Source: Allolobophora icterica (taxonomy: Eukaryota > Annelida > Clitellata > Crassiclitellata > Lumbricidae). From it: DNA of 64,000 nucleotides. The notes below the pieces were generated by a model that searched no databases, was not told where the DNA came from, and saw nothing but the letters and a program-made list of their open reading frames with translations. Position numbers and translations under genes: made by a program. Each line of letters opens with the position of its first letter. Position 1 is the first letter of the stretch. The stretch is taken from positions 1,111,030 to 1,175,029 of the forward strand of contig OY744611.1 of the NCBI GenBank assembly GCA_963556255.1. The letters are read 5' to 3'. Positions 1,500-53,540 of the stretch are shown in pieces.

Positions 1500-1870
1500 A
1501 AAAAGTTCATATATGTCAATTATTATTTCAGAAACCTTATGCGGAAGATGATCACCTGAGAGCTCATCAAAGAAACCCTACCAAAGAAAGACTGTGACGT
1601 GATCAATTTAGTGAATTGCTGGATGGGGACTATGAGAACCCATACCAGAGAAACACCAATGCAAGCTGCCAGCTTTGTTGGAAGCCAGTCAATTGTAATT
1701 GCAGTCAGAAAAAGCACATGAGAACCGATACTGGAGAAAAAAACATACCAATGTCACTTTTGTGAGAAATCATTTACTGAAGTACGTGGCTTGATTACTC
1801 ATGCTGCTGAAAAACCATACAGGGTGTAAATTACATAAGAAAACGTTTGCTCAAAAAATCTGGAAGCACA
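1500..1870 (+). pseudogene. Decayed zinc fingers upstream of ZNF1
   Basis: Remnants of C2H2 units occur in changing frames: about 1523-1590 (AEDDHLRAHQRNPT), 1741-1825 (CHFCEKSF, then one histidine of the expected pair) and 1827-1870 (CKLHKKTFAQK, then a stop). The ancestral gene therefore carried more N-terminal fingers than the open frame now has. The same decayed units precede ZNF4 in block B. It is unclear whether any is spliced into a transcript. Confidence 0.7.
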
Positions 1871-3169
1871 ATGAGAAACCATAGTACTGAAAACCCATAC
1901 AGGTGCCAGCTATGTCAGAAATCATTTGCTAAAAATTGTTATCTGAAAAGTCATATGAGAACCCATACTGGCAAAAAACCATACACGTGCCAGATATGTC
2001 AGAAATCATTTGCTAGAAATGGTGATCTGAAAACGCACATGAGAACCCATACTGGCGAAAAACCATACACGTGCCAGCTATGTGAGAAATCATTTGCTAG
2101 AAATGGTGAACTGAAAACGCACATGAGAACCCATACTGGCGAAAACCCATACACGTGCCAGCTATGTCAGAAATCATTTGCTAGAAATGGTGAACTGAAA
2201 ACGCACATGAGAACCCATACTGGCGAAAAACCATACACGTGCCAGCTATGTCAGAAATCATTTGCTAATCATTGTTATCTGAAAAGGCACACGAGAACCC
2301 ATACTGGCGAAAAACCATACACGTGCCAGCTATGTCAAAAATCATTTGCTGATCATTGTTATCTGAAAGTGCACATGAGAACCCATACTGGCGAGAAACC
2401 GTACATTTGCCAGCTATGTCAGAAATCATTTGTTAGGAATAGTGATCTGAAAACGCACACGAGAATCCATACTGGCGAAAAACCATACATATGCCAGTTT
2501 TGTCAGAAATCATTTGTTGATCATAGTAACATGAAAACGCACACGAGAACCCATACTGGCGCGAAACCATACAGGTGCCAGTTATGTCAGAAATCATTTG
2601 CAGTAGTCAGTGCTCTAAAGATGCACATGAGATATCATACAGGAGAAAAACCTTACATATGTCAAGTTTGTAATGAGGGATTCACACAAAATGGTGACCT
2701 GAAGATACACAGAAGAACTCATGCAACTGAGAAGCAACACAGGTGCAATAAACTTTATACCAAGACCAGTTCTTCATCTCAGCAGTTTAAACAGCATGCA
2801 GGAATACACCCACAGGATCTTAAAATGGAAAGTGAAATAATTACTAACCTGTCTGATCATTTCATTACAGTTAGTAGTGCAGGCGTTATTGGTAAACCAA
2901 ATGAACTTTCCTCGAAGAACAATTATCCAGATTCTAGTGGAATTGTAAGTCTCTTATCGAAAATTAGAGATGGAGAACATCAGTATATTAGCAAATTCCA
3001 ATCTCCTGTGGATGCAAAAGAGTCTTTGTCAAAATCTTTTGGTTGTGGTATATGTGACGAAATGATTGAAATAGAAAAGGAATTTATGGACCATTGTTCT
3101 AGCCATCGATTTTCTCCACCTGACGATTTAGCTGCTGACCTTTATACTTACAGATTGGAACAATTGTAA
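1871..3169 (+). CDS. C2H2 zinc-finger protein, 10 fingers (ZNF1)
   Basis: Predicted 432-residue nuclear DNA-binding protein; a transcription factor role is inferred from the family. Ten tandem C-x2-C-x12-H-x3-H fingers with TGEKPY-type linkers fill about residues 10-290. Helix positions -1,2,3,6 read KCYS, RGDT, RGET, RGET, NCYR, DCYV, RSDT, DSNT, VSAM, QGDI. An eleventh unit (HRCNKLYTK...HAGIH) has lost its second cysteine. A ~100-residue low-similarity linker leads to the family's C-terminal module: CGICDEMIEIEKEF, then DHCSSH, then [17 protein letters not shown]. The start is the first in-frame ATG; the frame is open back to 1811 and no acceptor is certain, so the true N-terminus may be spliced. 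Near-identical to ZNF4. No KRAB, BTB or ZAD domain is visible in this exon. Confidence 0.85.
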   Translation: MRNHSTENPYRCQLCQKSFAKNCYLKSHMRTHTGKKPYTCQICQKSFARNGDLKTHMRTHTGEKPYTCQLCEKSFARNGELKTHMRTHTGENPYTCQLCQKSFARNGELKTHMRTHTGEKPYTCQLCQKSFANHCYLKRHTRTHTGEKPYTCQLCQKSFADHCYLKVHMRTHTGEKPYICQLCQKSFVRNSDLKTHTRIHTGEKPYICQFCQKSFVDHSNMKTHTRTHTGAKPYRCQLCQKSFAVVSALKMHMRYHTGEKPYICQVCNEGFTQNGDLKIHRRTHATEKQHRCNKLYTKTSSSSQQFKQHAGIHPQDLKMESEIITNLSDHFITVSSAGVIGKPNELSSKNNYPDSSGIVSLLSKIRDGEHQYISKFQSPVDAKESLSKSFGCGICDEMIEIEKEFMDHCSSHRFSPPDDLAADLYTYRLEQL

Positions 3170-12301: not shown

Positions 12302-12545
12302 GGTAATCCAGGGTTTTAGCATCCGAATATTCCTGGGTTTTAGCGTCCGAAATTATTTTCATTAAAACGTTTTAATACAATAAATATTAATACAATAAAT
12401 AGTCATCGTTCATCCAACTTCTAGTTTCAGTTACATTTCATCGCTCGTCCAGCCTCTAGTTCGAGCTATATTTTCTTCGCTATAAGTTAGTGTTAAGAAG
12501 TACCGTAATTTGGCTGAGAGAGTGAGACGTGCTGGTTCAGGGATA
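12302..12545 (+). mobile_element. Broken Merlin-like MITE end (GGTAATCC terminus, block A)
   Basis: Begins GGTAATCCAGGGTTTTAGC and repeats the motif once (CCTGGGTTTTAGCGTCC at about 12331), followed by GAAATTATTTTCATT as in the complete element at 51463-51879. Inside are two minisatellite units of the TTCATC..CAACTTCTAGTTTC type. No matching right terminus is found; by about 12545 the sequence returns to the cluster spacer, so the right half is deleted. Confidence 0.65.
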
Positions 12546-13261: not shown

Positions 13262-13843
13262 ATTCAACTATTTCATCTTCAGTGGAAATCATACTAAAGA
13301 GCAGCATAAAGGTGTTCTATTGTACAAATGTTGGATCGCTTTAGTATTTCGACATAAAAATTACTACTACTGACAGATGAAACACGAAGCCTTCTTGTAA
13401 GCATCTGAAATGCAAACTTTAATAAAGTCGTCAATAATTTGAGAAATTGGACACTGCTGGTGTTAGAAAGGATATGACAACAACAATTGCAGAAACTTTT
13501 ATTGAGGGAATTTCTTTGAAGTGCATACTAGAACTGATGCTTATCAAAAGCCTTATAAATTCCAACTTTATCTTGAATCTGCTGATTGGAGAGGCACAGT
13601 AAGAAACCACACCGATGTCAGTAATTTCAGATACCGTCTGCTCAAGGACAAGCTGATCATCTGAGAGGTCTCAAGGAACACATACTGGAGAAACACAGCG
13701 AATAGCCTGATGTTGAATACTACAACCCAAACAGGAGAAAAAGAATACAGTGTCCAGATATATCGGAAGTCATTTAGTCAGGTTGTAATCTGTAAAAGCA
13801 CACAAGAACTCATACTGGTGGAAAAGCAATACATGTGCCAGTT
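13262..13843 (+). pseudogene. Decayed 5' region and fingers of ZNF2
   Basis: After TATTTCATCTTCAG (another acceptor-like tract) comes non-coding DNA shared by all units (GAAGTGCATAC..AACTGATGCTTATC, ATCTGCTGATTGGAGAGGCAC), then broken fingers such as EYSVQIYRKSFSQ (13744-13785) and YMCQLCQKE (13830-13855) in shifting frames. The same decayed units precede ZNF5, 6 and 7. Confidence 0.6.
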
Positions 13844-14612
13844 ATGTCAGAAAGAAACCATACTGGCGCAAAGCCACACAGGAGGGCGTTATGTCAGAAA
13901 ACATTTCTTCAAGGTAGTCGTTTGAAAGGTCATATGAGAGCCCATACTGCCAAAACACCATACAGGTGCCAGTTATGTCAGAAAACATTTGCTAAGGGTA
14001 ATAATCTCAAAGACCACATGAGAACTCATACTGGTGAAAAACCATACAGATGTCAGTTATGTCAGAAAACATTTGCTAAGGGTAATAATCTCAAAGGCCA
14101 CATGAGAACCCACACTGGTGAAAAACCATACAGATGTCAGTTATGTCAGAAATCATTTGGTAAAGGTAATAATCTCAAAGAGCACACCCAAAACCCATAC
14201 TGGCGAGAAACCATACAAATGTCAGTTATGTCAGAAATCATTTGCTATACATAGTCATCTGAAAACGCACATAAGAACCCATACTGGCGAAAAGCCATAT
14301 CGGTGCCAGTTATGTGAGAAATCATTTAATGAAGGTAATAATCTCAAAGGCCACATGAGAACTCATACTGGTGAAAAACCATACAGGTGTCTGTTATGTC
14401 AGAAAACATTTACTCAAGGTAGTAATCTTAAAAAGCACATGAACACCCACACTAGCGAAAAGCCATACAGGTCAAAGTCTTTTGGATGTGGTATATGTGA
14501 CAAACTGCTTGAAATAGAAAAGGAATTTATGGACCATTGTTCTAGCCATCTATTTTCTCCACCTGACGATTTAGCTGCTGATCTTTATACTTACAGATTG
14601 GAACAGTTGTAA
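13844..14612 (+). pseudogene. C2H2 zinc-finger gene broken by a frameshift (ZNF2)
   Basis: Block A counterpart of the intact ZNF5 (46015-46782). The first part encodes a degenerate finger and three KNNx-type fingers (AKGNNLK, AKGNNLK, GKGNNLK). A one-base gain near 14186-14191 (CACACCCAAAACCC against CACATGAAAACCC in ZNF5) shifts the frame, ending it at 14254. The +1 frame then carries the remaining fingers (IHSHLKTH, EGNNLKGH, QGSNLKKH) and the family C-terminal module to 14612. Either a pseudogene or an assembly error at one site. Confidence 0.85.
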
Positions 14613-14636: not shown

Positions 14637-15380
14637 GGTAATGTTTGTCTTTAGCGTCCGAAATTATTTCAATGTAAATGGTCGTTTCATAATCAATAGT
14701 TGTTGTAGTTTTCGCCAATTGCTACGATGAAGTGAGGGAACAAATCCCTCTCCCGAAACTGGTTGCGGAACACGAATTCCTTAAGATATGATGTAAACAA
14801 AGCTCTGCTTGTGCCGAACTGCCTCTTTAGTTTCCTTTTAGCCCTCATCCACATATTCTCCACATTCTGCGTGTGGACTTCGACATCTACAGGGTCGACG
14901 AAATGGTGTTGGTGAACGACGACAGAATGTTCGTAAATACCATGCCCTATGCTACCTATGTTACCATAGGCGGACCAACCATCTGAGACAATGTGGGTTC
15001 CGGGCAAAATGTATTGCTCTATGAGCTGTTCAAGTGTTGCGGCTCGCCGATCTGGGACCTCAACCAGGAAGCATTTACCGCTGCCACGTTCTATTCCTCC
15101 AAAAACCCAGTGACCTTCTCGCCACTGACCTCTATGGTACTTCCGGTGGAAATACTTTGTCTCGTCAATTTCCACAACCACAGTCTCACCGTTCTCATCA
15201 ATTCCTCCTATTTCACACGGCTTGTTCCCAAGCCACGTTTCGCATTCCTCGCGCATGAAGTTACTCCAATCAACGACATACCTGGCGCTTGCGATGTTGG
15301 CTTCGTGCTGCATCTGATGCTGAGGCATGTGCGTCCAGCAGTACACTGCTGTCACAATCTGGGAAAGTGTTAGATGACTT
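14637..15380 (-). mobile_element. Merlin-type DNA transposon, one terminus plus transposase
   Basis: The terminus GGTAATGTTTGTCTTTAGCG, followed by TCCGAAATTATTTCAATG, abuts sequence that in block B runs on uninterrupted (CATAGATGAATTGGG). This is the 3' end of an element read on the minus strand; its transposase stop codon lies 54 bp inside. The opposite terminus cannot be found: beyond about 15380 comes a telomere-like fold-back and then other unit sequence, so the 5' end is probably deleted. Confidence 0.7.
14693..15355 (-). CDS. Merlin/IS1016-like transposase, DDE domain (ISXO2-like)
   Basis: About 220 residues. Motifs seen: VVVEIDETKYFHRKYHRGQW (first acidic residues, D-E-T-K), WVFGGIERGSGKCF, ATLEQLIEQYILPGTHIVSD with the second acidic residue in SDGWSAY, HQHHFVDP and HTQNVENMWM with the third acidic position. 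This order is typical of the ISXO2/IS1595-type DDE domain of Merlin transposases. The N-terminal zinc-binding part expected of a full-length protein is missing or out of frame, so the copy is probably truncated. It would act in the nucleus on its own termini and MITE relatives. Confidence 0.85.
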   Translation of the reverse strand: MTAVYCWTHMPQHQMQHEANIASARYVVDWSNFMREECETWLGNKPCEIGGIDENGETVVVEIDETKYFHRKYHRGQWREGHWVFGGIERGSGKCFLVEVPDRRAATLEQLIEQYILPGTHIVSDGWSAYGNIGSIGHGIYEHSVVVHQHHFVDPVDVEVHTQNVENMWMRAKRKLKRQFGTSRALFTSYLKEFVFRNQFRERDLFPHFIVAIGENYNNY

Positions 15381-15390
15381 TTAGAAAAGA

Positions 15391-15430
15391 GGGTTAGGGT
15401 TAGGGTTAGTTGTGCCTAACCCTAACCCTG
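15391..15430. repeat. Telomere-like TTAGGG inverted repeat
   Basis: Three GGGTTA units are followed after a short spacer (GTTGTG) by CCTAACCCTAACCCT, giving a head-to-head telomere-motif hairpin. It is too short for an interstitial telomere array. It could be the terminus of the Merlin element or a repair scar. Confidence 0.6.
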
Positions 15431-15660
15431 CCAAACATCATCTCGAATCGACCGACTATCCATTAGTTCATTTGGATGTACTATTGTTTGATTTATGGGT
15501 CACTACAGGCAGTTTCTTGTCACGCACCTTTCTTTAAAAACATTTGCATTTGCATTTATTAGTGTCGTTGATCAATATGCTTAAATAAATAATGGCAAGT
15601 CGGGCAATTAATCAATCTTGCGCTTTACCATTACTTCTGCATATGCATGAGTTGATTTTT
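15431..15660. other. Unit-spacer junction
   Basis: From about 15564 (CGTTGATCAATATGC) the sequence matches a later unit at 62625-62740 (TTACGCTTTACCATTACTT, TTTTTGGGACTTGTTCT). The part before that is unmatched. No gene is seen. Confidence 0.5.
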
Positions 15661-19450: not shown

Positions 19451-19812
19451 AACTTTCGCTTAGTCAGCTATTTCATCTTCAGTCGAAATCAAACTGTGCT
19501 GTTATTCATCATAAGATTTTTATCTACTACTGACAGACGAAACATCTGAAACGTAAATTTAAATAACGTTGTCGAGAAACTGGACACTGCTAATGCTAGA
19601 GGCTACGACAACAATTGCATAGACTGATGCTCACCAAAAGCCATAGAAATAACAAATTTCTCTAGAATCTGGTGATTGGAGAGGCACATTATAACACCAC
19701 ATAGATGTCAGTAATTTCAGAAACGTATGCTCAAAGTGGTAATCTGATAACTGTTCAAAGAACCCATACTGGAGAAAAACAGTGAAATTAATTCAATTAA
19801 GTGAATGGCCTG

Positions 19813-21099
19813 ATGGCGAATATGAGGACCCAAACAGAATTTGAAGAATACAGATGCCAGTTATGTCAGAAAACATTTCCTGGAAGTATTTATCTGAAAC
19901 TGCACATGAGAACCCATACTGGCGAAAAACCATACAGGTGCCAGTCATGCCAGAAAACATTTACTGAAGGCAGTTCTCTGAAAAGGCACATGAGAACCCA
20001 TACTGGTGAAAAACCATACAGGTGCCAGTTATGTCAGAAAACATTTGCTCAAGGTAGTTATCTGAAAATACACATGAGAACCCATACTGACGAAAAGCCC
20101 TATAGGTGCAAGTTATGTCAGAAAACATTTGCTCGAGGTGATGCTCTGAAAGTGCACATAAGAGCCCATACTGGTGAAACAACATACAGATGCCAGTTAT
20201 GCCAGAAATCATTCAGTGAAGGTGCTACTCTGAAAAATCACATGAGAACCCATACTGGCGAAAAGCCATACATGTGCCGGTTATGCCAGAAATCATTTAG
20301 TCTAAGCAGTACTTTGAAAAATCACATGAGAACCCATACTGGGGAAAAGCCATACATGTGCAAGTTATGTCAGAAATCATTTAGTCAAAGTGGTAATCTG
20401 AAAAGCCATATGAGAATCCATACTGGTGAAAAACCATACATATGCCTGTTATGTCAGAAATCATTTGCTAAAGACAGTCATCTGAAAAATCACTTGAGAA
20501 CCCATACTGGTGAAAAACCATACAGATGCCAGTTATGTCAGAAAACGTTTGCTCGGAGTAGTGATCTGAAAACGCATATGAGAACTCATACAGGAGAAAA
20601 ACCATACATATGCAAGAATTGTAATACGGGATTCACACAGATTAGACATCTAACGACACACAGAAGAACTCATGCAACTGAGATGCAACACAAACGTTAT
20701 GCCAAGAGAAGTTCTGCAGTGCAGCAGTTTAAACTCCAGACAGGAACACAACCGCAAGATCCTGAAATGGGAATTGAAGTAATTACTTACCAATCTGATA
20801 ATTTCGGCATGTATATTATTGATAAACCAAATGAAAGTTTCTCAAAGAACATACATCCCGATTCTATTGGAATTGCAGATCGTTTACCGAAACTTAGAGA
20901 AGGAGAATGTCTGCATATTAGCAAATTCGAATCTCCTGTGGATGCAAAACCGTCTTTGTCAAAAGCTTTTGGATGTGGTATATGTGACGAATTGTTTAAA
21001 ATAGAAAAGGAATTTTTAGACCATTGTGCTAGCCATCGATTTTCTCCACCTGACGATTTAGCTGCTGACCTTTGCTGCATTACGATTCCCCGTAGTTGA
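19813..21099 (+). CDS. C2H2 zinc-finger protein, 10 fingers (ZNF3)
   Basis: Predicted 428 residues. Ten consecutive C-x2-C-x12-H-x3-H fingers with TGEKPY linkers fill about residues 14-300. Helix positions -1,2,3,6: GIYL, ESSR, QSYI, RDAV, EATN, LSTN, QGNS, KSHN, RSDT, QRHT. One degenerate finger and a linker follow, then the family module [14 protein letters not shown] and [15 protein letters not shown]. The last residues differ: [10 protein letters not shown] replaces DLYTYRLEQL because about 35 bp of new sequence enters after GACCTT. The ATG is the first in frame; an upstream exon is possible. Divergent from ZNF1 and outside the duplicated blocks, so an older paralogue. Confidence 0.85.
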
Positions 21100-28950: not shown

Positions 28951-29580
28951 CAGATGTTCAACACCCCCCTACCACTATGCACACCTGGTCCCCGGACATA
29001 TGAAACATGAACCCATCGTGTAAGCATCTGAATCGAAAAGTTAAATGAAACTAGACACTGCTCTTGTTAAAAAGGCTATATGACAACAACAATTTAACAA
29101 ACTATCAATCAGGCAATTGTTTTGAAGTGCATACCAAAATTGATGCTTATCAAAAGCCACAGAAACTCCAACTTTGTCTATAATCTGGTGATTGGAAGAA
29201 GCACATTTAAAAAAGTTCATATATGTCAATTATTATTTCAGAAACCTTATGCGGAAGATGATCACCTGAGAGCTCATCAAAGAAACCCTACCAAAGAAAG
29301 ACTGTGACGTGATCAATTTAGTGAATTGCTGGATGGGGACTATGTGAACCCATACCAGAGAAACACCAATGCAAGCTGCCAGCTTTGTTGGAAGCCAGTC
29401 AATTGTAATTGCAGTCAGAAAAAGCACATGAGAACCGATACTGGAGAAAAAAACATACCAATGTCACTTTTGTGAGAAATCATTTACTGAAGTACGTGGC
29501 TTGGTTACTCATGCTGCTGAAAAACCATACAGGGTGTAAATTACATAAGAAAACGTTTGCTCAAAAAATCTGGAAGCACA

Positions 29581-30879
29581 ATGAGAAACCATAGTACTGA
29601 AAACCCATACAGGTGCCAGCTATGTCAGAAATCATTTGCTAAAAATTGTTATCTGAAAAGTCATATGATAACCCATACTGACAAAAAACCATACACGTGC
29701 CAGATATGTCAGAAATCATTTGCTAGAAATGGTGATCTGAAAACGCACATGAGAACCCATACTGGCGAAAAACGATACACGTGCCAGCTATGTCAGAAAT
29801 CATTTGCTAGAAATGGTGAACTGAAAACGCACATGAGAACCCATACTGGCGAAAAACCATACACGTGCCAGCTATGTCAGAAATCATTTGCTAGAAATGG
29901 TGAACTGAAAACGCACATGAGAACCCATACTGGCGAAAAACCATACACGTGCCAGCTATGTCAGAAATCATTTGCTAATCATTGTTATCTGAAAAGGCAC
30001 ACGAGAACTCATACTGGCGAAAAACCATACACGTGCCAGCTATGTCAAAAATCATTTGCTGATCATTGTTATCTGAAAGTGCACATGAGAACCCATACTG
30101 GCGAAAAACCGTACATTTGCCAGCTATGTCAGAAATCATTTGTTAGGCATAGTGATCTGAAAACGCACACGAGAACCCATACTGGCGAAAAACCATACAT
30201 ATGCCAGTTTTGTCAGAAATCATTTGTTGATCATAGTAACATGAAAACGCACACGAGAACCCATACTGGCGAGAAACCATGCAGGTGCCGATTATGTCAG
30301 AAATCATTTGCAGTAGTCAGTGCTCTAAAGATGCACATGAGATATCATACAGGAGAAAAACCTTACATATGTCAAGTTTGTAATGAGGGATTCACACAAA
30401 ATGGTGACCTGAAGATACACAGAAGAACTCATGCAACTGAGAAGCAACACAGGTGCAATAAACTTTATGCCAAGAGCAGTTCTTCATCTCAGCAGTTTAA
30501 ACAGCATGCAGGAATACACCCACAGGATCTTAAAATGGAAAGTGATATAATTACTAACCTGTCTGATCATTTCATTACAGTTAGTAGTGCAGGCGTTATT
30601 GATAAACCAAATGAACTTTCCTCGAAGAACAATTATCCAGATTCTAGTGGAATTGTAAGTCTCTTATCGAAAATTAGAGATGGAGAACATCAGTATATTA
30701 GCAAATTCCAATCTCCTGTGGATGCAAAAGAGTCTTTGTCAAAATCTTTTGGTTGTGGTATATGTGACGAAATGATTGAAATAGAAAAGGAATTTATGGA
30801 CCATTGTTCTAGCCATCGATTTTCTGCACCTGACGATTTAGCTGCTGACCTTTATACTTACAGATTGGAACAATTGTAA
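29581..30879 (+). CDS. C2H2 zinc-finger protein, 10 fingers (ZNF4)
   Basis: Block B twin of ZNF1, 432 residues with the same ten fingers, degenerate eleventh unit and C-terminal module. All helix contact positions (-1,2,3,6) equal those of ZNF1, so DNA specificity should be unchanged. Differences fall in linkers and scaffold: TDKKPY after finger 1, GEKRY before finger 3, GEKPCRCRLC at finger 9 ([10 protein letters not shown] in ZNF1), VRHSD for VRNSD in finger 7, SAPDD for SPPDD in the tail. Preceded by the same decayed fingers (29210-29580). Start is the first in-frame ATG; an upstream exon cannot be excluded. Confidence 0.85.
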   Translation: MRNHSTENPYRCQLCQKSFAKNCYLKSHMITHTDKKPYTCQICQKSFARNGDLKTHMRTHTGEKRYTCQLCQKSFARNGELKTHMRTHTGEKPYTCQLCQKSFARNGELKTHMRTHTGEKPYTCQLCQKSFANHCYLKRHTRTHTGEKPYTCQLCQKSFADHCYLKVHMRTHTGEKPYICQLCQKSFVRHSDLKTHTRTHTGEKPYICQFCQKSFVDHSNMKTHTRTHTGEKPCRCRLCQKSFAVVSALKMHMRYHTGEKPYICQVCNEGFTQNGDLKIHRRTHATEKQHRCNKLYAKSSSSSQQFKQHAGIHPQDLKMESDIITNLSDHFITVSSAGVIDKPNELSSKNNYPDSSGIVSLLSKIRDGEHQYISKFQSPVDAKESLSKSFGCGICDEMIEIEKEFMDHCSSHRFSAPDDLAADLYTYRLEQL

Positions 30880-36660: not shown

Positions 36661-38546
36661 ATTGTAATTGTAATTGTAATCGAGGATTTATATAGCGCCA
36701 CTCATAAACAGAGGCGCTCCCGACCCGGGTCAGTGTCTTCACTGACAAAGAGAAATGTTTTCAGGCGTTTGCGAGACTGGGCAGGAGAGAGCGAGAGGAG
36801 GACAAGCCTAAAGCCTTGAGGGAGGCTGTTCCAGCTGGAAGGGCCCACAACCGCAAAACTACGGGACTGGGCAGTAGCAGTGCGCATCCAAGGAACTACC
36901 AAGTGGCCACGGGCAGATGACCGGAGAGAGGCCCGACCAGGCAAACTGGAAACTGGGGTGCAGTAAGCCCTGAGATACAGCGGAGCTGAGCCAACAAGTC
37001 AGTTACGCACGAGGGAAAGGACCTTAAATTGGATGCGTTGGTGAATGGGAAGCCAGTGAAGGGAGTCCCGGATGTAGGAAGAGATATGGGCAAACTTCAT
37101 GATGCCCCCTATGAGGCGAGCTGCAGCATTATGGATGGACTGAAGTTTTGATGTATTAGTAGAGGACAGGCCAATATAGACAGCGTTTCCGTAGTCAATC
37201 CTAGTGCAGATCAGAGCATGAACCAAGGTCGCAATCGCATGCAGCGGAAGAGACTGGCGAATGGCACGAAGTTGGCGTAAATAGTAAAAGCACGAGCGAG
37301 AGACACTATTGACATGATCAGATAGAGAAAGAGTAGGATCTAGGACAAATCCAAGATCACAGACAGAGGAGGAGAAGCATACATTGGAAAACCTGAGGCG
37401 CAGAGAGTCAGCATCAATCCTGGCAAGCTGGACACGATTACCAAGCCAAATGTACTTGGTTTTATCATAGTTAAGACGGAGGCGATTTGAGGACAACCAG
37501 AGATCAAGAGCAGAGGAAGCCTCCAGGATGCGTTCAACCATAAGAGCAGCTGAGTTGGCTGGACCATGGAGGTAAGCCTGTGTGTCATCAGAGTATTGGT
37601 GAGACGAAACACCCATTGGACCAAGAACCCCAGCTAGATCCGAGATATACAAAATAAACAGAAGAGGAGCGAGGACAGAGCCCTGAGGTAGTCCATACGG
37701 TATGTGGGTCCAAGCAGAGCGGGTAGGTCCAAAAACAACAGAAACAGAGCGATCAGTAAGGAATGAGCGAAACCAAAAGAAGCAGAGTCAGCAATGCCAA
37801 AAGATTTAGATAAACGGTCTAAGAGGATGGTATGGTCTACAGTATCAAAGGCAGCACTAATATCGTAAAGAGCAAGTAAAGTGACCTGGCCTAGATCAAA
37901 GGCTTGAAATACTTCAGCTAGAAGGCGCAGTATAAGCGATTCTGTCGAGTAGAATTTCCTGAACCCAGACTGAAGAGTAGGCATAAGAGAATTAGAGTCA
38001 AGGTAATAGATCAGTTGATAAGAGACACATTTTCCCAGAAGCTTTGAAAGGAAAGAGAGGTTTGAGATAGGACGATAGTTTGAAGGAGGGTTAGGATCAA
38101 GGCCTTGGCGCTTAATGGAATGGAAAACCACAGCCCTTTTGTGCAGTGCCGGGACACAACCTTGAGCTAGAGAAGAATTACAAAGTAATGTCAAAAATGG
38201 AGTCAACTCATCTACAAAGTCCTTAACTAGAAATGGAGGAAGCAGGTCTAGTTCACACGACTTCGAGGAAGAATCCAGTATCAGCTGACGGATTGCAGAT
38301 GGCTCAAGTGGTTTCCATGACGAGAGGATAGCTGTAGTAGAAGTGAACGAAGGATTTGGTGCATTTTCCGTGGATTTGCGAGTAGAATCGATCTTGGCCT
38401 GGACAAAGTTTAGGTAATCGTCCGCCGTGAAAGGAGTCTGAGACGGAGAGCAGGAGACAGTAGAACGACCGAGCACGTCAGCAATTGTCGCCCAGAGCCG
38501 GCGTGAATTTCCCTTTTCACGATCAATTAACAATTCCCAAGTAAGT
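36661..38546 (-). mobile_element. LINE (CR1/L2-like), minus strand, block B
   Basis: Copy of 9933-11814 with the same (ATTACA)n tail and ATAAGTA duplications (36654-36660, 38547-38553). Here the frame is open from the pre-RT linker through LLALYDISAAFDTVDHT (38557 to 37634 minus), but a frameshift in the region before GLPQGS breaks it. HQYSDDTQAY onward is open from 37652 to 36999. A and B are thus broken at different places. A 3'-terminal frame (36944-36702) encodes FAVVGPSSWNSLPQGFR, the usual C-terminal tail of such RT proteins. Confidence 0.9.
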
Positions 38547-38553
38547 ATAAGTA

Positions 38554-38968
38554 TCACGGTTGTGATTATTGGGTGTACACTGTTGCAACAATGAGCTATT
38601 ACTGATCATTAATGAACCAGCTCTCCAATATGCTGTACACTTCTTTCTTCATAAGACTAATTAAATTTCAAAATAGTAATTTTAGAAGTAGGATTGTTTA
38701 CATACTACTGATATCCCAGTTGCCTGTAGAACTTCAAAATGTGTTCGCTAGATGACAGGATATACTTTCAAAACTTCCAGGTTATATGTCACTGTGGCAA
38801 ACACTTTAATCCTACGCCATTTTGTCCTGGTGAAGTATAAGCCAAATTATATGGAAATTTGACTTTAGCGCCAAATCTGGTTAGATTATATAACTATTTG
38901 CATATAGTTTAGTGTAAAATACATTTTAATAAACGACAGGTAGGGCAGTGAGGCAATTGCTAATTTTA
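38554..38968. other. Unit spacer before the Gmr1-like element
   Basis: Block B copy of 11822-12250, interrupted at GCTAATTTTAC by the retroelement. No gene is seen. Confidence 0.65.
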
Positions 38969-39083
38969 CCTCCTTCCTTTTTCTGGAATTGAGCAAATTA
39001 AATTTCAAAATTTGCGAAATTACCAAAATACATGAAACATATATATATATATCTAACTAATTAATGAACAGTCTTACGATTAC

Positions 39084-39737
39084 TTATAACCTTGACAAAC
39101 AATCAGCAATAACATTCAATCTGCCCTTCTTGTACTTCACCTCAACATCAAAAGTTTGTAAGGCTAACGCCCAACGCACAAGTTTAGCAGACTTAGACAT
39201 TGACTCAGTCAAGTATGTAAGAGGATTGTGATCAGTAAAAATGAAAATTTTTGATCCAATTATAATTTCTTTTAACTTGTTTAGAGCCCAAACAATAGCA
39301 TAGGCTTCCTTTTCCACAGTAGCCCATCTCTTCTGGGTATCAGTTAATTTCTGACTGATAAATGACACAGGGCGTTCTATTCCCTTGTCGTCCATCTGTG
39401 TTAAAACAGCACCGACTGCAAAGTCACTACTATCGCAGTACAAATTGAATGGTTTTCCCACTTCAAAAACATATAATACTACTTTGGATCGCACAGCCTC
39501 TTTAAGTAAATCAAATGCTTGCTGATGTTCAACAGTCCAATCAATCTTATCAGAAACACGTTTACTAGTTAAATCAGATAAAGGTTTCGCAATCTGTGCA
39601 AAGTCCTTAATAAACTGTCTGTAATAATTAAAAAATCCAAGCAGTTGCTTAACTTGCTTCTTAGTTTCTGGGATCTTCAAATTAGTCAAACTTTCAATTC
39701 TGTCTGGATTCATCTTTATCTTACCAGACCCAACCAC
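39084..39737 (-). pseudogene. Retrotransposon RT thumb and RNase H, N-terminally cut
   Basis: About 217 residues, with no in-frame start. It opens with the RT end (FIGHVV, then GKIKMNPDRIE, out of frame with the upstream gag-pol frame), followed by QLLGFFNYYRQFIKDFAQIA. RNase H follows with its acidic residues in LYCDSSDFAVGAVLT, KEAYAIVWALNKL and FTDHNPLTYL, ending ADCLSRL. Gypsy-type order. The missing piece upstream includes the expected catalytic YxDD box. Confidence 0.9.
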
Positions 39738-42700
39738 ATGACCGATAAACCTTACAGGTAAGAATGAGGTAAAATTCTATTACAAAACACATTTCTTTGA
39801 TCTGACGTTCCACTTCTGCTCGATAAATCAAAGGAATTCGATACGCTGCAAATTCCTTTTCATGAAATCCTGGTTTTAGTTCAATTTCATGTTCAACCAA
39901 TGTACATAATCCGGGTTTTTCTGAAAATCTGTCACAGTATTTGTTCAAGACGTTCAACAACTGGTCTTGTTGAGTTACTGTCAAATGGCTAATTTGTTCA
40001 GGATCGAGGTTAAGTGAATTCTTGTCATCTTGAACCTCATTCCTCATTGGTAATTCAACCACTGAACCAAAATCTTCATCTTCTTCAACAATTAGACCAC
40101 AACTTAATGCTCGAGTAACATATTTTCTGATCTTGTTGGCGTGAATTATTTTTCGACCATTTTCACCCATATCGACTAAATAAGAGTACTTTGATCTTCG
40201 ATGTATGATCGTACATGGACCATGCCATCGAGAAATAAGTTTGTTTGTTGACGTTGGATACAAAACTATGACTTTCTCACCAGCTTCAAATTCTTTGTGC
40301 TTTGCTCTCTTGTTATACTGATTCGTGTATTGTAATTGCTTTTCTCGAGAGTAGGATTCTGCAAACAATAATGCTTTCTCCATATTTTCTTTGAGTTCTT
40401 TCAAATACTTTTCTGGTTTAACTCCAACATGAGGTGGTAAGTTTATTTCTCTAGTCCAACTCTCTTTTAATATTGCCAATGGTCCTCTCGGAATTTTCCC
40501 ATAGACAAGCATATATGGTGATACTCCAGTAGTTGCATTCGGCACTTCTCGTAATGCCCACACTGTGAAAGGAATTATCTTGTGCCATTTCCTCGGGTTG
40601 TCTATTATCACATGATGGATCATCTTTTTAAATGTCTGATTCCATCTTTCTACTAATCCAGCAGCCTCTGGGTGTCCTGGTGTGTCGAATCGTGGACTAC
40701 AGCCCATTAAATTGAGAAATTCTCTTGTCAAACTGGCTGTGAAGTTCGTTCCTTGGTCACTTGTAATCACGGACGGTACACCAACGTTCATGAACAGTTC
40801 CATCAACGCTTCACACACAGCCTTCGCTGTCAGCGATTTCAATAAGAAGATTGTAGGCCATCTGGTGCACGAGTCCACAATGCATAAACAATACTTGTGA
40901 CCTGCAGCAGATACTGGATCGATCGGGCCAACGAGGTCCATCGTCATTCTCCTGAAGGCGACCTCTTCTCTTGAGACTGGAGTGATGGGCACTCTATCCA
41001 TCACCAAACTCCTTGCCTTTAGTTGACACTTCTCGCAAGACTTACAAAATTTCACAATATCTCTTCTCATCTTTGGCCATACAAAAGATAATTTTATTCG
41101 TTCTCTTGTTTTCTCTTCTCCTAGATGTCCTCCAAATACCGACTCATGTGCCAATTCCATCACTTTTATTCGTCTCTCTTTTGGTAACACTAGTTGATAT
41201 ATCGTCTGGTCTAATATCTGATATTTCTTATGCAATAAACCGTTGATCACACAGAATTCAGATTCTTTCTCTTGTGCTAACTTCCACCACGGCTTCAACG
41301 ATTCATCCTTTCTCTGTTGCTCTTCGAACTTCTTCGAATCGGCAATCTGCACCTTTTGTTCTTCATCCATCTCTTCATCGCTATACAAGTCTCCTATCCC
41401 CACATCACATTCATTGTCTTCTTCAGTTTCATTTAATGTGCCATTCTCGCATGCAGCCATCTCTTGCTCGTTCATCTCTGCTATTACACCATCTCGCGAT
41501 AAGCTTCGTTGCTCATTACTTTCGTTTTCCTCATCACTTGAACTTTCAGTTTCACTCTTCTCATCAACATCTACCATTTCCTGTTTCCGACTCTGCGCTC
41601 TCGTCATTACATTTGCTCGTACACTCACATCTCCTTGTATCGTTTTAACCTTCATCTGTGGTACGGCTTTTAATTCGGCAATTATCTCTGGATGCAACAA
41701 GAATCTTTCTGTACTGCCCATCTTTGCAATACTAGCACACATCAAGGTGACATAAGGTGTAAGTGAACACTGGATTTTACGCGGAAATCCCTCTTCTTCC
41801 ACGTCACTACCACACAGTCTAACATCGACTTTCACTAACTTCGCAGGAATGGCATCTCCTGCCACACATTGCAAATTCACTTTTCCAATTTGTTCCACCT
41901 TCATGCCTTCCAGTAATTCTTCACTAATCACCGGAATCTCTGCACCCGAGTCGCTCAGTGCTTTGACTTTCACTGGCTCTTTACCGTCTACTGCACGAAT
42001 TTCAACCTCGACATATTGCAAGAACGATTTCTTCAATATTCGACTGTCATCTTTTCCTATGACTTCTCTCTGAATTTCAGCATCCAATAGAATTTCTTTT
42101 TGAATACCACATTTCATTATTGACTTTACTTCAGTCTCTTGGTTTTCTTGACCCGTGGTTTGATTACCTGTATCACTAACCACTTGAATCAAATTCACCC
42201 TTGTGTGTTCTTGATTTCTGCTAGAACTAGCTGCTGCCACTGGAACTGGACAAAATTTAACCAAATGTTTGTCTGAACCACAGTTGTGACAACGCTTCAC
42301 AACCATGCCTCGTTGTTCATTTCCTTCATTTCTCTTATACTGCGTAAACGATGTGTTGCCTTCCCTCTTGGCAAACGGCGCTGACGATTTGTTAAATCCC
42401 TGACGACCAAACGTCACTTCTCTGGTCTCATTGGGTACAGGGACACTAGCCTTGACTTCTTTACCTTTGAACTGATTCCCTGTTCCTGGATTACTTTTCC
42501 ACTTTCCACTCTGGCTTTGGTTTACGGAACGTTGAGAAGGATAACTGTTTATATTTGGGATCGCAAACCCAATTCGATTGTTTACATGAATGTCTGCCAC
42601 TGCACTAGCTTGGAGACAGTCAGTTCCTTCCTTCGACAATACAAACTGTAGTGGACCTGGCGGTAAACATTCTTTTAGCTTATCCGCTACCAGCAAATCA

Positions 42701-43992
42701 AAGAGCGTATCATACTCTCTGTTCACATTTCGACTTCTCACGTAATAGTTTAGCAAGTTCTTAAGTCTTGCCGTAAACATCGTATAAGTCTCTTCTGTTG
42801 TCTTCTTAGCATCCACAAATCTGGCTCTGTATTCTCTCGAAGTCAACTTAAATTCTTTTAATAAGTGCTGCTTGACTCTATCATAATTGTCTAGATCATC
42901 GTATGACAATCTATTCAGAACGGTTCGAGCTTTCGGCGTCATCAATGGTAGTAATAATTTAACCCAAAACAGCTTTTCCACAGCAAAACTACGAAACGCG
43001 TTTTCGACTGTTTCAAAATATAATGGCACCTCCATCATATCAGTTGGCATTTGAGGCAATACATGCTTCATTGCATCACCTATTTTCTTAATTTTTGACA
43101 CCAAAGTTTCACTTTCTTGCTGCTTCCTTCTTTCTGCTTCCCGTTCTTCTCTCATTTGCGTTTCTTTCAATGTCAATTTTGATTTCTCCAGTTTCAGACG
43201 TTCCTGTCTTTCTGCCTCTGCCTTTTCCAAACTTTCTTTCTGAAATTTGAGTTCTTCTTGTCTGATCTGTTCTGCACGTTCCAACTCTAACGTTCGCGCT
43301 TTTTCTTTTTCTTCTTCACGCATTCTCTTTGCTTCAATCTGTTGCTGACGAACCTCTTCATCACTTTTTCTAGCTCTTTCAAATTCAATCATCTGCTCCA
43401 GTCTTCTTCTTTCAGCATCTTCCCTATCTCTTTTCAACTGTTCTAATTGAATCTCAAACTGATGCTTTTGCAATTCCAGTTCTGCCTTACGCACTTGTTC
43501 TGCTTTATCTTCTCTCTCTCTCTGCAGGCGCAATTCCTCTTGCCTTGCAAGTTCCGCTTTCTCTTCTTTCTCTCTCTGCAAGCGCAATTCTTCTTGCCTT
43601 GCAAATTCTGCCTTCTCTTCTTTCTCTCTCTGCAAGCGCAAATCGTCTTGTCTTACACGTTCTGCTTCTTGTCTCAGCTCTTTCTCTTCTTGTCTTCGTC
43701 TCTCCTCTCTTTCTTTCTCTTCTTGCCTCGTCATCATCATCCACTGCATCAACATCTCCATAGACATAGGCGCAGGAGGTTTTTCAATAGCCTTTTCTAC
43801 GGCACCGCCAACTGCACCTTCTTCTTCAACTTCTTCTTTAACCCACACTTCAGCGAGTTCCTGTATCATGTCACCACGTGACATACCTTCTAATTGTTCT
43901 TCTTTAAAACCGGCTTTCAACAAACGCTGTTTCAGCCTTTCCGTAGACATCTTCTTAATATCTGCTTGTCTTTCAGCACTTAGTTTCTCCAT
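39721..43992 (-). pseudogene. Gag-protease-integrase polyprotein of Gmr1-like element
   Basis: One frame of 1423 residues starting MEKLSAERQADIKKMSTERL. Residues ~85-300 are a highly charged coiled coil (K/E/R/Q with REKEEKAE-type repeats). A CCHC knuckle CHNCGSDKHLVKFC lies at ~565, and protease-like LSDSGAEIPVI at ~680. The integrase has its zinc-binding part at ~955-990 (GHLGEEKTRERI, CKSCEKC), then the D, D, E residues in MDLVGPID (~1016), ITSDQGTNF (~1076) and AAGLVERWNQ (~1111). A GPY/F-like part (WHGPCTI) follows at ~1258. The frame ends just inside the RT (VEHEIELKPGF, AYRIPL, ~1367-1390) at a deletion and frameshift. Fusion of gag and pol in one frame is as seen. Not functional because RT is gone. 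Confidence 0.9.
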
Positions 43993-44955: not shown

Positions 44956-45200
44956 GGTAATCCAGGGTTTTAGCATCCGAATATTCCTGGGTTTTAGCGT
45001 CCGAAATTATTTTCATTAAAACGTTTTAATACAATAAATATTAATACAATAAATAGTCATCGTTCATCCAACTTCTAGTTTCAGTTACATTTCATCGCTC
45101 GTCCAGCCTCTAGTTCGAGCTATATTTTCTTCGCTATAAGTTAGTGTTAAGAAGTACCGTAATTTGGCTGAGAGAGTGAGACGTGCTGGTTCAGGGATAT
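44956..45200 (+). mobile_element. Broken Merlin-like MITE end (block B)
   Basis: Block B copy of 12302-12545, with the same duplicated GGGTTTTAGC motif and minisatellite units and no right terminus. Confidence 0.6.
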
Positions 45201-45428: not shown

Positions 45429-46014
45429 CTATATTCAACTATTTCATCTTCAGTGGAAATCATACTAAAGAGCAGCATAAAGGTGTTCTATTGTACAAAT
45501 GTTGGATCGCTTTAGTATTTCGACATAAAAATTACTACCACTGACAGATGAAACACGAAGCCTTCTTGTAAGCAACTGAAATGCAAACTTTAATAAAGTC
45601 GTCAATAATTTGAGAAATTGGACACTGCTGGTGTTAGAAAGGATATGACAACAACAATTGCAGAAACTTTTATTGAGGGAATTTCTTTGAAGTGCATACT
45701 AGAACTGATGCTTATCAAAAGCCTTGTAAATTCCAACTTTATCTTGAATCTGCTGATTGGAGAGGCACAGTAAGAAACCACACCGATGTCAGTAATTTCA
45801 GACACCGTCTGCTCAAGGACAAGCTGATCATCTGAGAGGCCTCAAGGAACACATACTGGAGAAACACAGTGAAAAGCCTGATGTTGAATACTACAACCCA
45901 AACAGGAGAAAAAGAATACAGTTTCCAGATATATCGGAACTCATTTAGTCAGGTTGTAATCTGTAAAAGCACACAAGAACTCGTACTGGTGGAAAAGCAA
46001 TACATGTGCCAGTT
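45429..46014 (+). pseudogene. Decayed 5' region and fingers of ZNF5
   Basis: Uninterrupted version of 13262-13843 (no solo LTR). Contains the broken finger EYSFQIYRNSFSQ (about 45917) and YMCQLCQKE (46001 onward) in shifting frames. Confidence 0.6.
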
Positions 46015-46782
46015 ATGTCAGAAAGAAACCATACTGGCGCAAAGCCACACAGGAGGGAGTTATGTCAGAAAACATTTCTTCAAGGTAGTCGTTTGAAAGG
46101 TCATATGAGAGCCCATACTGTCAAAACACCATACAGGTGCCAGTTATGTCAGAAAACATTTGCTAAGGGTAATAATCTCAAAGACCACATGAGAACTCAT
46201 ACTGGTGAAAAACCATACAGATGTCAGTTATGTCAGAAAACATTTGCTAAGGGTAATAATCTCAAAGGCCACATGAGAACCCACACTGGTGAAAAACCAT
46301 TCAGATGTCAGTTATGTCAGAAATCATTTGGTAAAGGTAATAATCTCAAAGAGCACATGAAAACCCATACTGGCGAGAAACCATACAAATGTCAGTTATG
46401 TCAGAAATCATTTGCTATACATAGTCATCTGAAAACGCACATAAGAACCCATATTGGCGAAAAGCCATATCGGTGCCAGTTATGTGAGAAATCATTTAAT
46501 GAAGGTAATAATCTCAAAGGCCACATGAGAACTCATACTGGTGAAAAACCATACAGGTGTCTGTTATGTCAGAAAACATTTACTCAAGGTAGTAATCTTA
46601 AAAAGCACATGAACACCCACACTAGCGAAAAGCCATACAGGTCAAAGTCTTTTGGATGTGGTATATGTGACAAACTGCTTGAAATAGAAAAGGAATTTAT
46701 GGACCATTGTTCTAGCCATCTATTTTCTTCACCTGACGATTTAGCTGCCGACCTTTATACTTACAGATTGGAACAATTGTAA
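46015..46782 (+). CDS. C2H2 zinc-finger protein, 6 fingers (ZNF5)
   Basis: Predicted 255 residues, the intact twin of the frameshifted ZNF2. A degenerate first finger (ELCQKTF, first cysteine lost) precedes six canonical fingers. Helix positions -1,2,3,6: KNND, KNNG, KNNE, ISHT, ENNG, QSNK. The family linker of about 100 residues is missing: finger 6 runs via TSEKPYRS straight into the C-terminal module ([36 protein letters not shown]). This suggests an internal deletion that joined fingers to the tail in frame. The ATG lies where other copies have the CQLC of a finger, in another frame, so the start arose by frameshift. Confidence 0.8.
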   Translation: MSERNHTGAKPHRRELCQKTFLQGSRLKGHMRAHTVKTPYRCQLCQKTFAKGNNLKDHMRTHTGEKPYRCQLCQKTFAKGNNLKGHMRTHTGEKPFRCQLCQKSFGKGNNLKEHMKTHTGEKPYKCQLCQKSFAIHSHLKTHIRTHIGEKPYRCQLCEKSFNEGNNLKGHMRTHTGEKPYRCLLCQKTFTQGSNLKKHMNTHTSEKPYRSKSFGCGICDKLLEIEKEFMDHCSSHLFSSPDDLAADLYTYRLEQL

Positions 46783-47510: not shown

Positions 47511-47812
47511 GGATACGGAAATTTCGCTCCCGGAAGAATCGCCCTCGGAAGATTCGCCTTCGACATTTCGCTCCCGAGAAGATTCGCCCCCGCTTCTAGT
47601 CTTAGTTGCATTTTCATCATAGATCCCGCTTCTAGTCTTAGTTATATTTTCATCGCTAATCCAGCTTCTAGTCTTAGTTGCATTTTCATCATAGATCCCG
47701 CTTCTAGCCTTAATTACATTTTCATCATAGATCCCGCTTCTAGTCTTCCGGGGACGAAACTTCCGGGGGCGAAATGTCGGGGGCGAATATTCCGGTGCGA
47801 AAAGTCCTAGAA
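47511..47812. mobile_element. Fold-back element with minisatellite core
   Basis: Arms rich in TTCGC(T/C)CCCGGAAGA (47522-47600) are inverted at 47748-47808 (CTTCCGGGGGCGAAATGTCG). Between them are four ~34-bp units CCCGCTTCTAG.CTTA.TT..ATTTTCATCATAGAT. The core belongs to the same minisatellite family as the Merlin-like MITEs, but the termini differ. Confidence 0.65.
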
Positions 47813-50159: not shown

Positions 50160-50640
50160 ATTTCGTCTACTATGACTTTTCTTGATCCCGCCTCTAGTTT
50201 AAGTTATATTTTGATCGTTCATCCCGCCTCTAGTTTTTGTTAATCTTTCATTCAGGTTCTACTGTTACTTATATTTTAGTCGTTGATCTCGCTTCTAGGT
50301 TCAGTTATATTTTTTTCGTTGATCCCGCCTCTAGTTTAGTTTATATTTCAATCTTTCATCCAGGTTCTACTGTTAGCTATAATTTAATCTAATTGCTAAT
50401 TGGAAGACGGTAACAGGTGCGAAATGGTTTGAGGTTTATAATTTCAAATTCTGCGCCTTTTGTTGAAAGATTGAAATCTAACTAAAACTAGAAGCGAGAT
50501 GAACGAGCAAAATATAGACTAACCTAGAAGCGGGATCACGGATTAAAATATAACTTAAACCAGATACTGGACCAACGATTAAAATGTAACTTAAACTAGA
50601 AGCGGGATCAAGAAAAGTCATAGAGATCGAAGACGGGGAA
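50160..50640. repeat. Minisatellite arrays in opposite orientation
   Basis: 50175-50390 has units of the form GATC.CGC(C/T)TCTAG.TT.AGTTATATTTT. 50470-50615 has the inverse (AAAATATAACTTAAAC.AGA, AGCGGGATCA). The two halves could pair. Related to the cores of the Merlin-like MITEs. Confidence 0.65.
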
Positions 50641-51462
50641 CGATCGGGAGATTCGACATTGGAGATTCGACAAGTGAAGGCGAAGAGAAAAAGGCGAAGT
50701 TTAAAGAAGTTGCTTATGCAATAACCATCATTTGGGTGGGTCACGATAAATCGATTTATAACTTTAAATGCATTCTTAATATTCACTTCTGTTCACTTCT
50801 TTATTCCTTAGAACTGTCTAAAATAATATGACGGTAATTTTAGAAATAGGACTCCTAGCAATTTATATAATTATAATCACAGAAATCGTAGTTGCTGTTG
50901 AGCCTCCAGATGTATTCGCTAGATGACAGGATATACTTCCAAAAACTCCAGCCTTCTATTCAATGTTGTCAACCACTTTAATCAGTCGCCATTTTGTGCT
51001 CATGGCAGGATGAACCAGATTATGGGAAAATATTACTTTAATGTCAAACCCGGTTACATTCTATAACTCTGTACATATAATTTAGTGGACAAACACATTT
51101 TCTAAACGACAGCTAGGTCAATGAGGGAATTGCTGATCTTATGGTTTGAGGTTAGTGTTTTTTTTCTCCCGCACGCGTTTGATTGAAGTCTTTCCGACGA
51201 ACATTAAACCAATAAATGTAAATGTTTTTATGTAGCGACCGTATGACCTCGACTCTCCTCATCTTTCAATGAATTGATTGGGGGAGATCCTACGCTGCCC
51301 GTTAGAATGGGTACCACTCCATTTCAGGTCCCTGCTTGATTAGGCGCATACGGACCGTGCTAACCAGAGATAACAAGAGATGTCGTTAGACGCAGTTCCT
51401 TGTCATGCACCGTTGATATGCGTCAATAATTATGCGCAAATAGGTCGATACATACAGATGAA
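50641..51462. other. Unit spacer
   Basis: 50860-51160 is the recurrent block (GATGACAGGATATACTTCC, CGCCATTTTGTGCT, AAACGACAGCTAGGTCAATG). 51230-51400 (GCGACCGTATGACCTCGACTC, CCATTTCAGG, CCGTGCTA) matches 56965, 58340-58460 and 62440-62580. No gene is seen. Confidence 0.6.
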
Positions 51463-51879
51463 GGTAATCCTGGGTTTTAGCGTCGGAAATTATTTCATTG
51501 AAAAGTTCTAATACAATAATACAATAAATAATCATCGTTCATCCAACTTCTAGTTTCAGTTATATTTTAATCGATTATCCACCTTCTAGTTTCGTGAACA
51601 TTTTCATCAATCTTCCAACTTCTAGTTCGAATTTTACTATGAAATGTTTTCATCGCTCATACACGGGAATAATATCGGCACTAAAACGATATATTTTCGT
51701 CGTAATATATTCCAACTTCTAGTTGGACTTTTATTATGTAATATTTTCATCGCTCATCCGGCTTCTAGTTTCATTGATATTTTCGTCAATCTTCCAACTT
51801 CTTGTTTGAGTTTAACTGTGAAATGTTTTCATCGCTCATGCAATGTAAATAATTTCCGACGCTAAACCCCAGGATTACC
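51463..51879. mobile_element. Merlin-like MITE, complete (GGTAATCC family)
   Basis: Left end GGTAATCCTGGGTTTTAGCG and right end CGCTAAACCCCAGGATTACC are inverted for about 38 bp with few mismatches (through GGAAATTATTT and CATTG). The 8-bp CAGATGAA flanks it at 51455-51462 and 51880-51887. 417 bp; the interior is degenerate units of TTTCATC..TC.ATCC.ACTTCTAGTTT. Its ends match the terminus beside the transposase at 14637. Confidence 0.9.
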
Positions 51880-51887
51880 CAGATGAA

Positions 51888-52987: not shown

Positions 52988-53540
52988 TCAGCTATTTCAT
53001 CTTCAGTGGAAATCATACTGAACAAAAGCGTGAAGCGTGCTATTATAAAAAGGTTGGATAGCTTTCGGATTTCGTCATAAAAATTACTACTAGTGACAAA
53101 TGAAACATGAACCCTACCTGAAAACCTCTCAAACGCAAACTGAAATGGAGTCGTCGATAATGTGAGAAACTGGACACTGCTGGTGTTAGAAAGGCTATGA
53201 CAACAATAATTGCAGTAACTTTTAATCAGGCAATTGCATACGAAAACTGATGCTTCTCGAAAGCCATACAAATTCGAACTGATTGGAGAGGCACATTAAA
53301 ACACCACATAGATGTCAATAATTTCCGAAACTGTGCGATCATCTGAGAGCTCTTGAACGAATACAACTGGAGAAAAACAGTAAAATTATCAATTAAGTGA
53401 AAAGCCTGATGTTGAACATTAGAACCCAAACTGGAGAAAAAGAATACAGTGTCCAGATATATCAAAAGTCATTTAGTCAGGGTGTAATCTGAAAAAGCAC
53501 ATGAGAACCCATACTAGCGGAAACCATACACGTGGCAGTT
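52988..53540 (+). pseudogene. Decayed 5' region and fingers of ZNF6
   Basis: Shares TCAGCTATTTCATCTTCAG and later blocks with other units. A decayed finger EYSVQIYQKSFSQ (about 53443) is followed by AAAAAGCACATGAGAACCC, the 3' half of a finger in another frame. Confidence 0.6.

Follow-up and report, generated by a model that had tools for sequence, protein, structure and literature searches.

Merlin Transposons and MITEs of Allolobophora icterica Have One End Plan with Different Cassettes, a Pattern That Points to End Exchange

Introduction

Merlin transposons are the eukaryotic kin of IS1595/IS1016. A zinc-binding domain at the N-terminus is a trait of the IS1595 family, with the exception of the IS1016 group. 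The Merlin superfamily has been described as having ends that start with GG, target duplications of 8-9 bp, and a DDE transposase (PMC8101967). In line with this description, the transposases that we found in the annelid Allolobophora icterica are no different: they have the same PF12762 domain and D-D-E motif, and their elements have the same GG-starting ends and 8-9-bp duplications. Two features seen here, a lineage-specific cassette set between constant blocks and a MITE interior that recurs across lineages, are absent from the part of that account on which we draw, and the words "MITE" and "non-autonomous" have no occurrence in its main text.

One clear precedent in the open-licence literature for variable ends around a kept interior, as far as the portion of that work cited here goes, is the coral CMITEs, piggyBac-type elements of Acropora (PMC2872659). 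As in our data, their terminal repeats differ and their interior is more conserved, one family has the ends of the autonomous element with a different interior, and tandem and nested forms occur. They differ in belonging to the piggyBac superfamily and in having TTAA duplications. Their origin was left open by the authors in the portion cited, whereas here a fusion, a conflict between trees, and the statistics of end pairs point to end exchange. For the P-element MITEs of Anopheles gambiae, an origin by gap repair was proposed, in which the ends of the master element are kept and the middle is filled from elsewhere (PMC1562414, in the passages that concern this origin). There the new MITE gains filler, whereas here the filler would be a MITE family that already existed, which would thereby gain new ends.

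We analyzed a stretch of 64,000 nucleotides of A. icterica (contig OY744611.1), called the window below, and the genome to which it belongs. Our main reading, to which we give a probability of about 0.7, is that several Merlin lineages share one end plan and that one MITE backbone received different cassettes at both of its ends by end exchange.

A Damaged Merlin and Complete MITEs in the Window

Positions 14,637-15,501 of the window hold a damaged Merlin (IS1595-type) transposon. The part of its transposase gene that is still open (14,693-15,355, minus strand, 220 aa) covers the catalytic domain and matches PF12762 (DDE_Tnp_IS1595, E 1.1e-17), and EID, SDGW, and VEN, the motifs of the D, D, and E residues, can be read in its translation. 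The original prediction of a Merlin-type transposase at this place is thus borne out. We took as reference an intact element of 1,177 bp on contig C1, of the lineage that we call A. Over residues 95-325 of the intact protein, the window reading frame shows 96% identity. More precisely, element positions 427-1177 are kept at 14,637-15,390 (minus strand, 98% over 757 columns) and positions 151-225 at 15,430-15,501 (minus strand, 93% over 75 columns), with an inverted TTAGGG-type repeat of 39 bp (15,391-15,429) replacing positions 226-426. The copy lacks positions 1-150, the 5' part of the element, and hence its other end.

The remaining element end, GGTAATGTTTGTCTTTAGCGTCCGAAATTATTTC, begins at 14,637. 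The terminal inverted repeat of this right end (14,637-14,676, plus strand) matches each end of the intact element of 1,177 bp at 40/40 bp, and its cassette, TGTTTGTC (cassette A), lies at 14,642-14,649. Since the window copy aligns with the intact Merlin-A through position 1177, this terminus is a genuine transposon end, and the sole surviving one of the copy. It had been predicted at 54 bp past the transposase; the end is real, and its outermost base lies 56 bp past the last base of the reading frame (14,693). In the interior of the same copy, 201 bp of the transposase gene have given way to the TTAGGG/CCCTAA sequence of 15,391-15,429, which looks like the healing of a break by a telomere-type filler.

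The window also has three complete MITEs, all with perfect 8-bp target duplications as predicted. A B-type MITE of 417 bp (51,463-51,879) is flanked by CAGATGAA (51,455-51,462 and 51,880-51,887). Two C-type MITEs, of 644 bp (57,478-58,121) and 648 bp (63,035-63,682), are flanked by GAAATGTT and TTTTTATT, respectively. The first of these has a second end core 40 bp inside its left end, and in the second the core is partly mutated, reading TGTTAGCG at the left end and TTTCGCG at the right. At 12,302-12,360 (plus strand), two B-type end cores stand in tandem with a core offset of 24 bp, followed by a piece of the common backbone described below; a second copy of this fragment (44,956-45,014, plus strand) lies where the surrounding DNA, too, is present a second time. 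A further MITE-like element, of type K (56,984-57,311), has the ends GGTAAAACCGTAGTTTAGG and GGTAATCCCGTAGTTTAGG and contains an array of 36-bp repeats; its flanks showed no target duplication. The window has 10 occurrences of the motif TTTAGCGT versus 1.64 expected, a count reached in 0 of 100 shuffles.

Merlin Lineages in the Genome

The protein search of the whole 1.118-Gb genome (328 contigs) gave at least 152 matches, with 150 of 573 candidates scored, and all counts below are lower bounds. The fine analysis covered about 94 loci and 12-15 MITE copies. Lineage A has at least 5 matches, the window copy included, which are 97-100% identical to the window protein. Two of its elements are intact, with perfect A ends and perfect 8-bp duplications: one of 1,177 bp (GCCAAGTC) and one of 1,174 bp (GAAATTTT). 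Hence full-length Merlins between two GGTAA..TTTAGCGT ends, the search proposed with the original prediction, do exist. Two further elements of 1,183 bp have slightly mutated ends and 9-bp duplications, such that target duplications are found in four of the five loci, the fifth being the window copy.

Lineage F was found in 12/12 fetched loci, with ends GGTAAATACCCATTTTAACGTCGG, duplications in 11 of the 12, and many near-identical copies. Its lengths of 1196, 1231, and 1266 bp (L051-L062) result from a 35-bp tandem unit just before the start codon. Lineage G (12 loci, duplications in 10) has ends GGTAATTGAGGCTTTTAGCGTCCCC and also many near-identical copies. The full proteins match PF12762 with E values of 9.4e-18 (A), 1.6e-18 (F), and 2.7e-16 (G), and D172, D232, and E273 are nearly invariant across 53 transposase sequences. 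The predicted structure (mean pLDDT 88.6) has retroviral integrases as its top Foldseek matches (E 1.5e-5), and the Merlin transposases are thus predicted to hold the D-D-E motif in an RNase-H-like fold. A, F, and G each have a pair of CxxC motifs (residues 59 and 82), for which there is no match to a Pfam zinc domain; the truncated window copy lacks them.

Other Merlins are degenerate. One of them, L050, has a B-type left end (31/34 positions), a catalytic part that is 75% identical, an internal stop, and A rather than E at the third catalytic position; its right end was searched for and not found. Another (L092, 1,222 bp) has B-like ends on both sides. A third (L079) has one end found, of type K, and others have ends of type I (L076, L087) or type J (L085, L090, L091). 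A, F, G, and L050 are placed near one another when a protein tree is built with two outside sequences, the fork there being weak (89/86). Merlins with termini other than those of lineage A, which the original prediction had named as evidence against itself, are therefore found outside that lineage: F and G keep the plan and differ in the cassette, and I and J have clearly different ends.

Among the loci read, there was no intact B or C transposase and no transposase between two C-type ends. When 40 of the 712 first-look C-end candidates were scored against the transposase hits, one was near a listed hit, as a separate complete MITE. Several candidates were rejected. The transposase of L080/L081, considered as a C-type autonomous element, has its own lineage-I ends; in L080 the right lineage-I end directly abuts the final 72 bp of a C MITE, of which the remainder is absent from the locus. 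L092 was considered as a C partner, and its complete C MITE (620 bp) lies beside the transposase and not around it. Two B-ended pairs on C1 were considered as Merlins: one of 3,579 bp (L033) lacks a target duplication and contains a frame of 753 residues that is of a different kind, and one of 838 bp (L032) has a one-mismatch duplication and no transposase match.

Anatomy of the Ends and Pairing of Cassettes

The ends of types A-H follow one plan: GGTAA, an 8-bp cassette, and a core like TTTAGCGTCSGAAATTATT. The pattern GGTAA-N8-TTTAGCGT-N4-AATTATT, an exact one that favours well-preserved copies, has 1,846 matches (908 + 938) in the 1.118-Gb genome, and the reversed control has 0 + 0. The cassettes are TGTTTGTC for A, TCCTGGGT for B, ACGTACGY for C, AACCCCAT for D, TCTTGGCC and variants for E, ATACCCAT for F, TTGAGGCT for G, and TCCTGTGG for H. 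Each of the intact lineages A, F, and G has its own cassette. Cassette A is seen on A Merlins and on A-ended MITEs, and the latter have the same cassette and core as an autonomous A element (L031). The MITEs fall into size classes of 413-434 and 644-650 bp; they are short and non-coding, and have inverted repeats, target duplications, and many copies.

We analyzed the pairing of ends in the first 100 listed places, which span contig C1 up to 52 Mb. Neighbouring ends had the same cassette type in 35 of 37 pairs (shuffled mean 10.4, maximum 21 in 20,000 shuffles). Of the two pairs that disagree, one is an E/E-like pair that the nearest-reference rule assigned to different types, and the other belongs to a D element in which a B end lies just inside the right D end. 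Variants of the core also match between the two ends, CGG/CCG in 11/11 B pairs and AATT/ATTT in 13/13 C pairs, and most C copies have a constant one-base difference between their ends. Duplications of 8 or 9 bp with at most one mismatch flank 31 of the 35 same-type, non-nested pairs, full-length Merlins being among the 35.

One Backbone with Several Cassettes

Once 34 bp are trimmed from each end, MITEs with A, B, D, and E ends align over about 300-360 bp, the A197 and E328 copies being shorter. They have a common backbone of about 0.4 kb with 36-bp repeats, and C-ended MITEs have 210-310 bp of it in inverted orientation (74-83%). The original prediction had linked the MITE types of the window to the Merlin end. 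The link stands for the core and for much of one interior, and it fails for the cassettes, which are A in the window transposon and B and C in its MITEs.

Between types (48 pairs from 12 copies, which are non-independent, such that we rely on the pattern and give no combined p), the proportion of differing sites is 0% in GGTAA, 61.8% in the cassette, 4.7% in the core, and 14.2% in the interior. Within types, the respective values are 0%, 3.5%, 2.5%, and 5.3%. Fisher tests of cassette against interior in single pairs give p of at most 2e-5 for all A-B pairs and are weak, some above 0.05, when E328 or E430 is involved. The interiors of four B copies are 98-99% alike, and those of C copies up to 96%. 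At the level of sequence, different cassettes occupy one backbone, the two ends of an element match, and cassette A is that of the intact A Merlins.

A 12-bp subterminal stretch follows the A end in 59 places and the B end in 105 (controls 0); the 59 should not be read as so many separate transpositions. The 36-bp backbone is missing from the autonomous A element, and for types B, D, and E we have no intact donor and recipient side by side. Each of four backbones has one central core-like site matching at 22-26 of 40 positions, versus 0.08-0.33 sites of at least 18 in 12 shuffles, which is suggestive of internal copies of the end core. The 36-bp repeats, searched in the same manner, are below the threshold of 18.

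Conflict between Interior Tree and Cassette, and a Chimeric Junction

The tree of interiors, tested on 12-15 copies, disagrees with the cassettes. A434 (L037) falls within the B clade (100/99), and A425 (L036) falls outside it. The interior of A434 is 93-94% identical to those of B copies and 86% to that of A425. A single clade of A425 and A434 is rejected (p 1.3e-7), as is a single clade of all five A rows (p 3.3e-5). Hence, cassette A is present on at least two backbones. The B-type ends as one clade are rejected weakly (p 0.034). The short A197 type remains unplaced, its exclusion from a group with A425 (p 0.060) or with A434 (p 0.144) not being significant. Both A197 copies with compared flanks have GAAAGTTT-type flanks, and these copies may therefore be copies of a larger repeat.

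The L037 element itself is chimeric. At one end, it agrees with the right terminus of the autonomous A Merlin over 67/67 bp and then continues as B-like backbone, with an overlap at the fusion of about 2 bp by eye; its other end has the A cassette followed by the backbone's own subterminal sequence. A 24-bp word across the fusion occurs at 4 places on 4 contigs, each with an exact A end and with backbone on the far side, over a span of 380-384 bp. The 150 bp beside the fusion end of L037 match 13 places (13/13 candidates scored), none of which is one of the other three chimeras. The four are therefore not one duplicated segment that includes this flank, and this suggests that the chimera was mobile. 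No target duplication was found at the flanks of L037.

Nested, Tandem, and Extended Ends

Nesting, too, is a real source of new ends. In L038, a D end lies directly outside a B end, and the duplications are outside D. We also found a B MITE inside a C MITE (L015), an A Merlin inside an E-ended element (L049), and an F Merlin inside a B MITE (L058). The D452 element shows how a terminus can be altered by the nesting or layering of ends as well. Doubled ends are seen as well at L007, L010, L011, L022, L042, and L092. The spacing of doubled cores is 24 bp (core offset) in the B fragments of the window and 40 bp in C-type left ends, and the type K ends (56,984-57,311 of the window, and L079) are also doubled at 40 bp. 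At 1490-1913 of L015, an extra terminal GGTAAT.. copy of 11-12 bp lies outside the normal end, with the target duplication ATTAATTA outside the extra copy (by eye). A similar extra copy of 11-12 bp is seen in L013 (1501-1925), where a duplication with one mismatch may lie outside it, again by eye.

Discussion

If the ends were exchanged, this probably happened during repair. A Merlin transposase would excise or cut an element, and the break would be repaired by copying the Merlin ends from a sister element, inward from both sides. Synthesis would then switch, via the shared 20-bp core (about 2 bp in the chimera), into a MITE and copy its interior. The product would be a MITE with at least the outer 13 bp of the Merlin at both ends and with the old target duplication. 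We infer this exchange step from established gap-repair models of cut-and-paste transposition. A stronger version, which we hold tentatively and at somewhat less than even odds, is that the cassette serves the transposase as an address of the lineage, and that one backbone changed address repeatedly, both ends being replaced in single repair events. In our main reading, too, the transposase would read the cassette, each A-ended MITE would have been moved by the A transposase, and the backbone, as a parasite, could become the client of different transposases.

The original prediction was that a single transposase lineage mobilises all three end types of the window, which would make the cassette an unread spacer. 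The GGTAA, the core, and the duplication length common to the end types are as expected from this, and there are recent B copies (98-99% in four copies) and C copies (up to 96%), and the loci read contain no intact transposase of either type. However, an unread spacer should not agree at both ends in 35 of 37 elements, nor separate sharply by lineage, and intact F and G elements with many near-identical copies could serve the other types. We found no support for the prediction in this respect, the cassette type being nearly always the same at both ends, and we consider it quite unlikely. Cassettes could also have diverged by descent alone, if the backbone was already part of an ancestral Merlin, every lineage gave off a MITE of its own, and the cassettes changed fast together with the transposases. 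In agreement with this, L050 has a backbone-like stretch (75-80% identical) between its B-type left end and its transposase, and closer transposases have more similar ends. Against descent without exchange stand the greater identity of the A434 interior with the B copies than with A425, the rejection of an A425 and A434 clade, and the literal fusion in L037 of an A Merlin end with the backbone, and we regard it as very improbable.

The nested elements raise another possibility, namely that new ends arise by insertion in or beside the end of another element followed by loss of the interior, with no copying during repair. The D end outside a B end in L038, the nested elements L015, L049, and L058, and the tandem ends at 12,302 and 44,956 of the window are all in line with it. 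But such layering would hardly yield a clean change of 8 bp alone at both ends of a terminus that is otherwise unchanged, as in A425, A434, the B copies, D424, and the E copies; as the general explanation, it seems unlikely to us. Under end exchange, which we prefer, the A end of the window and its B and C MITEs would be linked by a common interior and by exchanged ends, rather than by a demonstrated common transposase.

This single genome contains an intact Merlin as donor, the backbone as recipient, their fusion point, and the product in repeated copies, and end exchange can therefore be tested directly. When MITEs are assigned to transposases according to how similar their interiors are, the result can mislead, since the histories of cassette and interior can differ. 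If the cassette is indeed a lineage address that the backbone has changed, a parasite with no gene of its own would outlive one transposase by turning to the next.

Other Features of the Window

Tandem arrays of 36-bp repeats occur both inside and outside the MITEs of the window (47,589-47,747, 50,185-50,389, 57,070-57,235, 57,549-57,668, and 63,106-63,231), and they are related to one another across end types. The region 36,999-43,992 (minus strand) contains remnants of LTR-type retroelements with reverse transcriptase, RNase H, and integrase domains, and a window reading frame of 1,423 aa matches retroelement proteins. Frames made of 84-bp (28-residue) tandem units lie at 1,847-3,169, 13,835-14,612, 19,801-21,099, 29,557-30,879, 46,006-46,782, 53,532-54,500, and 59,069-60,952. 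The frame at 19,801-21,099, the only one of them that was searched, is a C2H2 zinc-finger array. Some of these frames resemble mutual copies: the one at 1,847 is similar to the one at 29,557, and 13,853 to 46,024.
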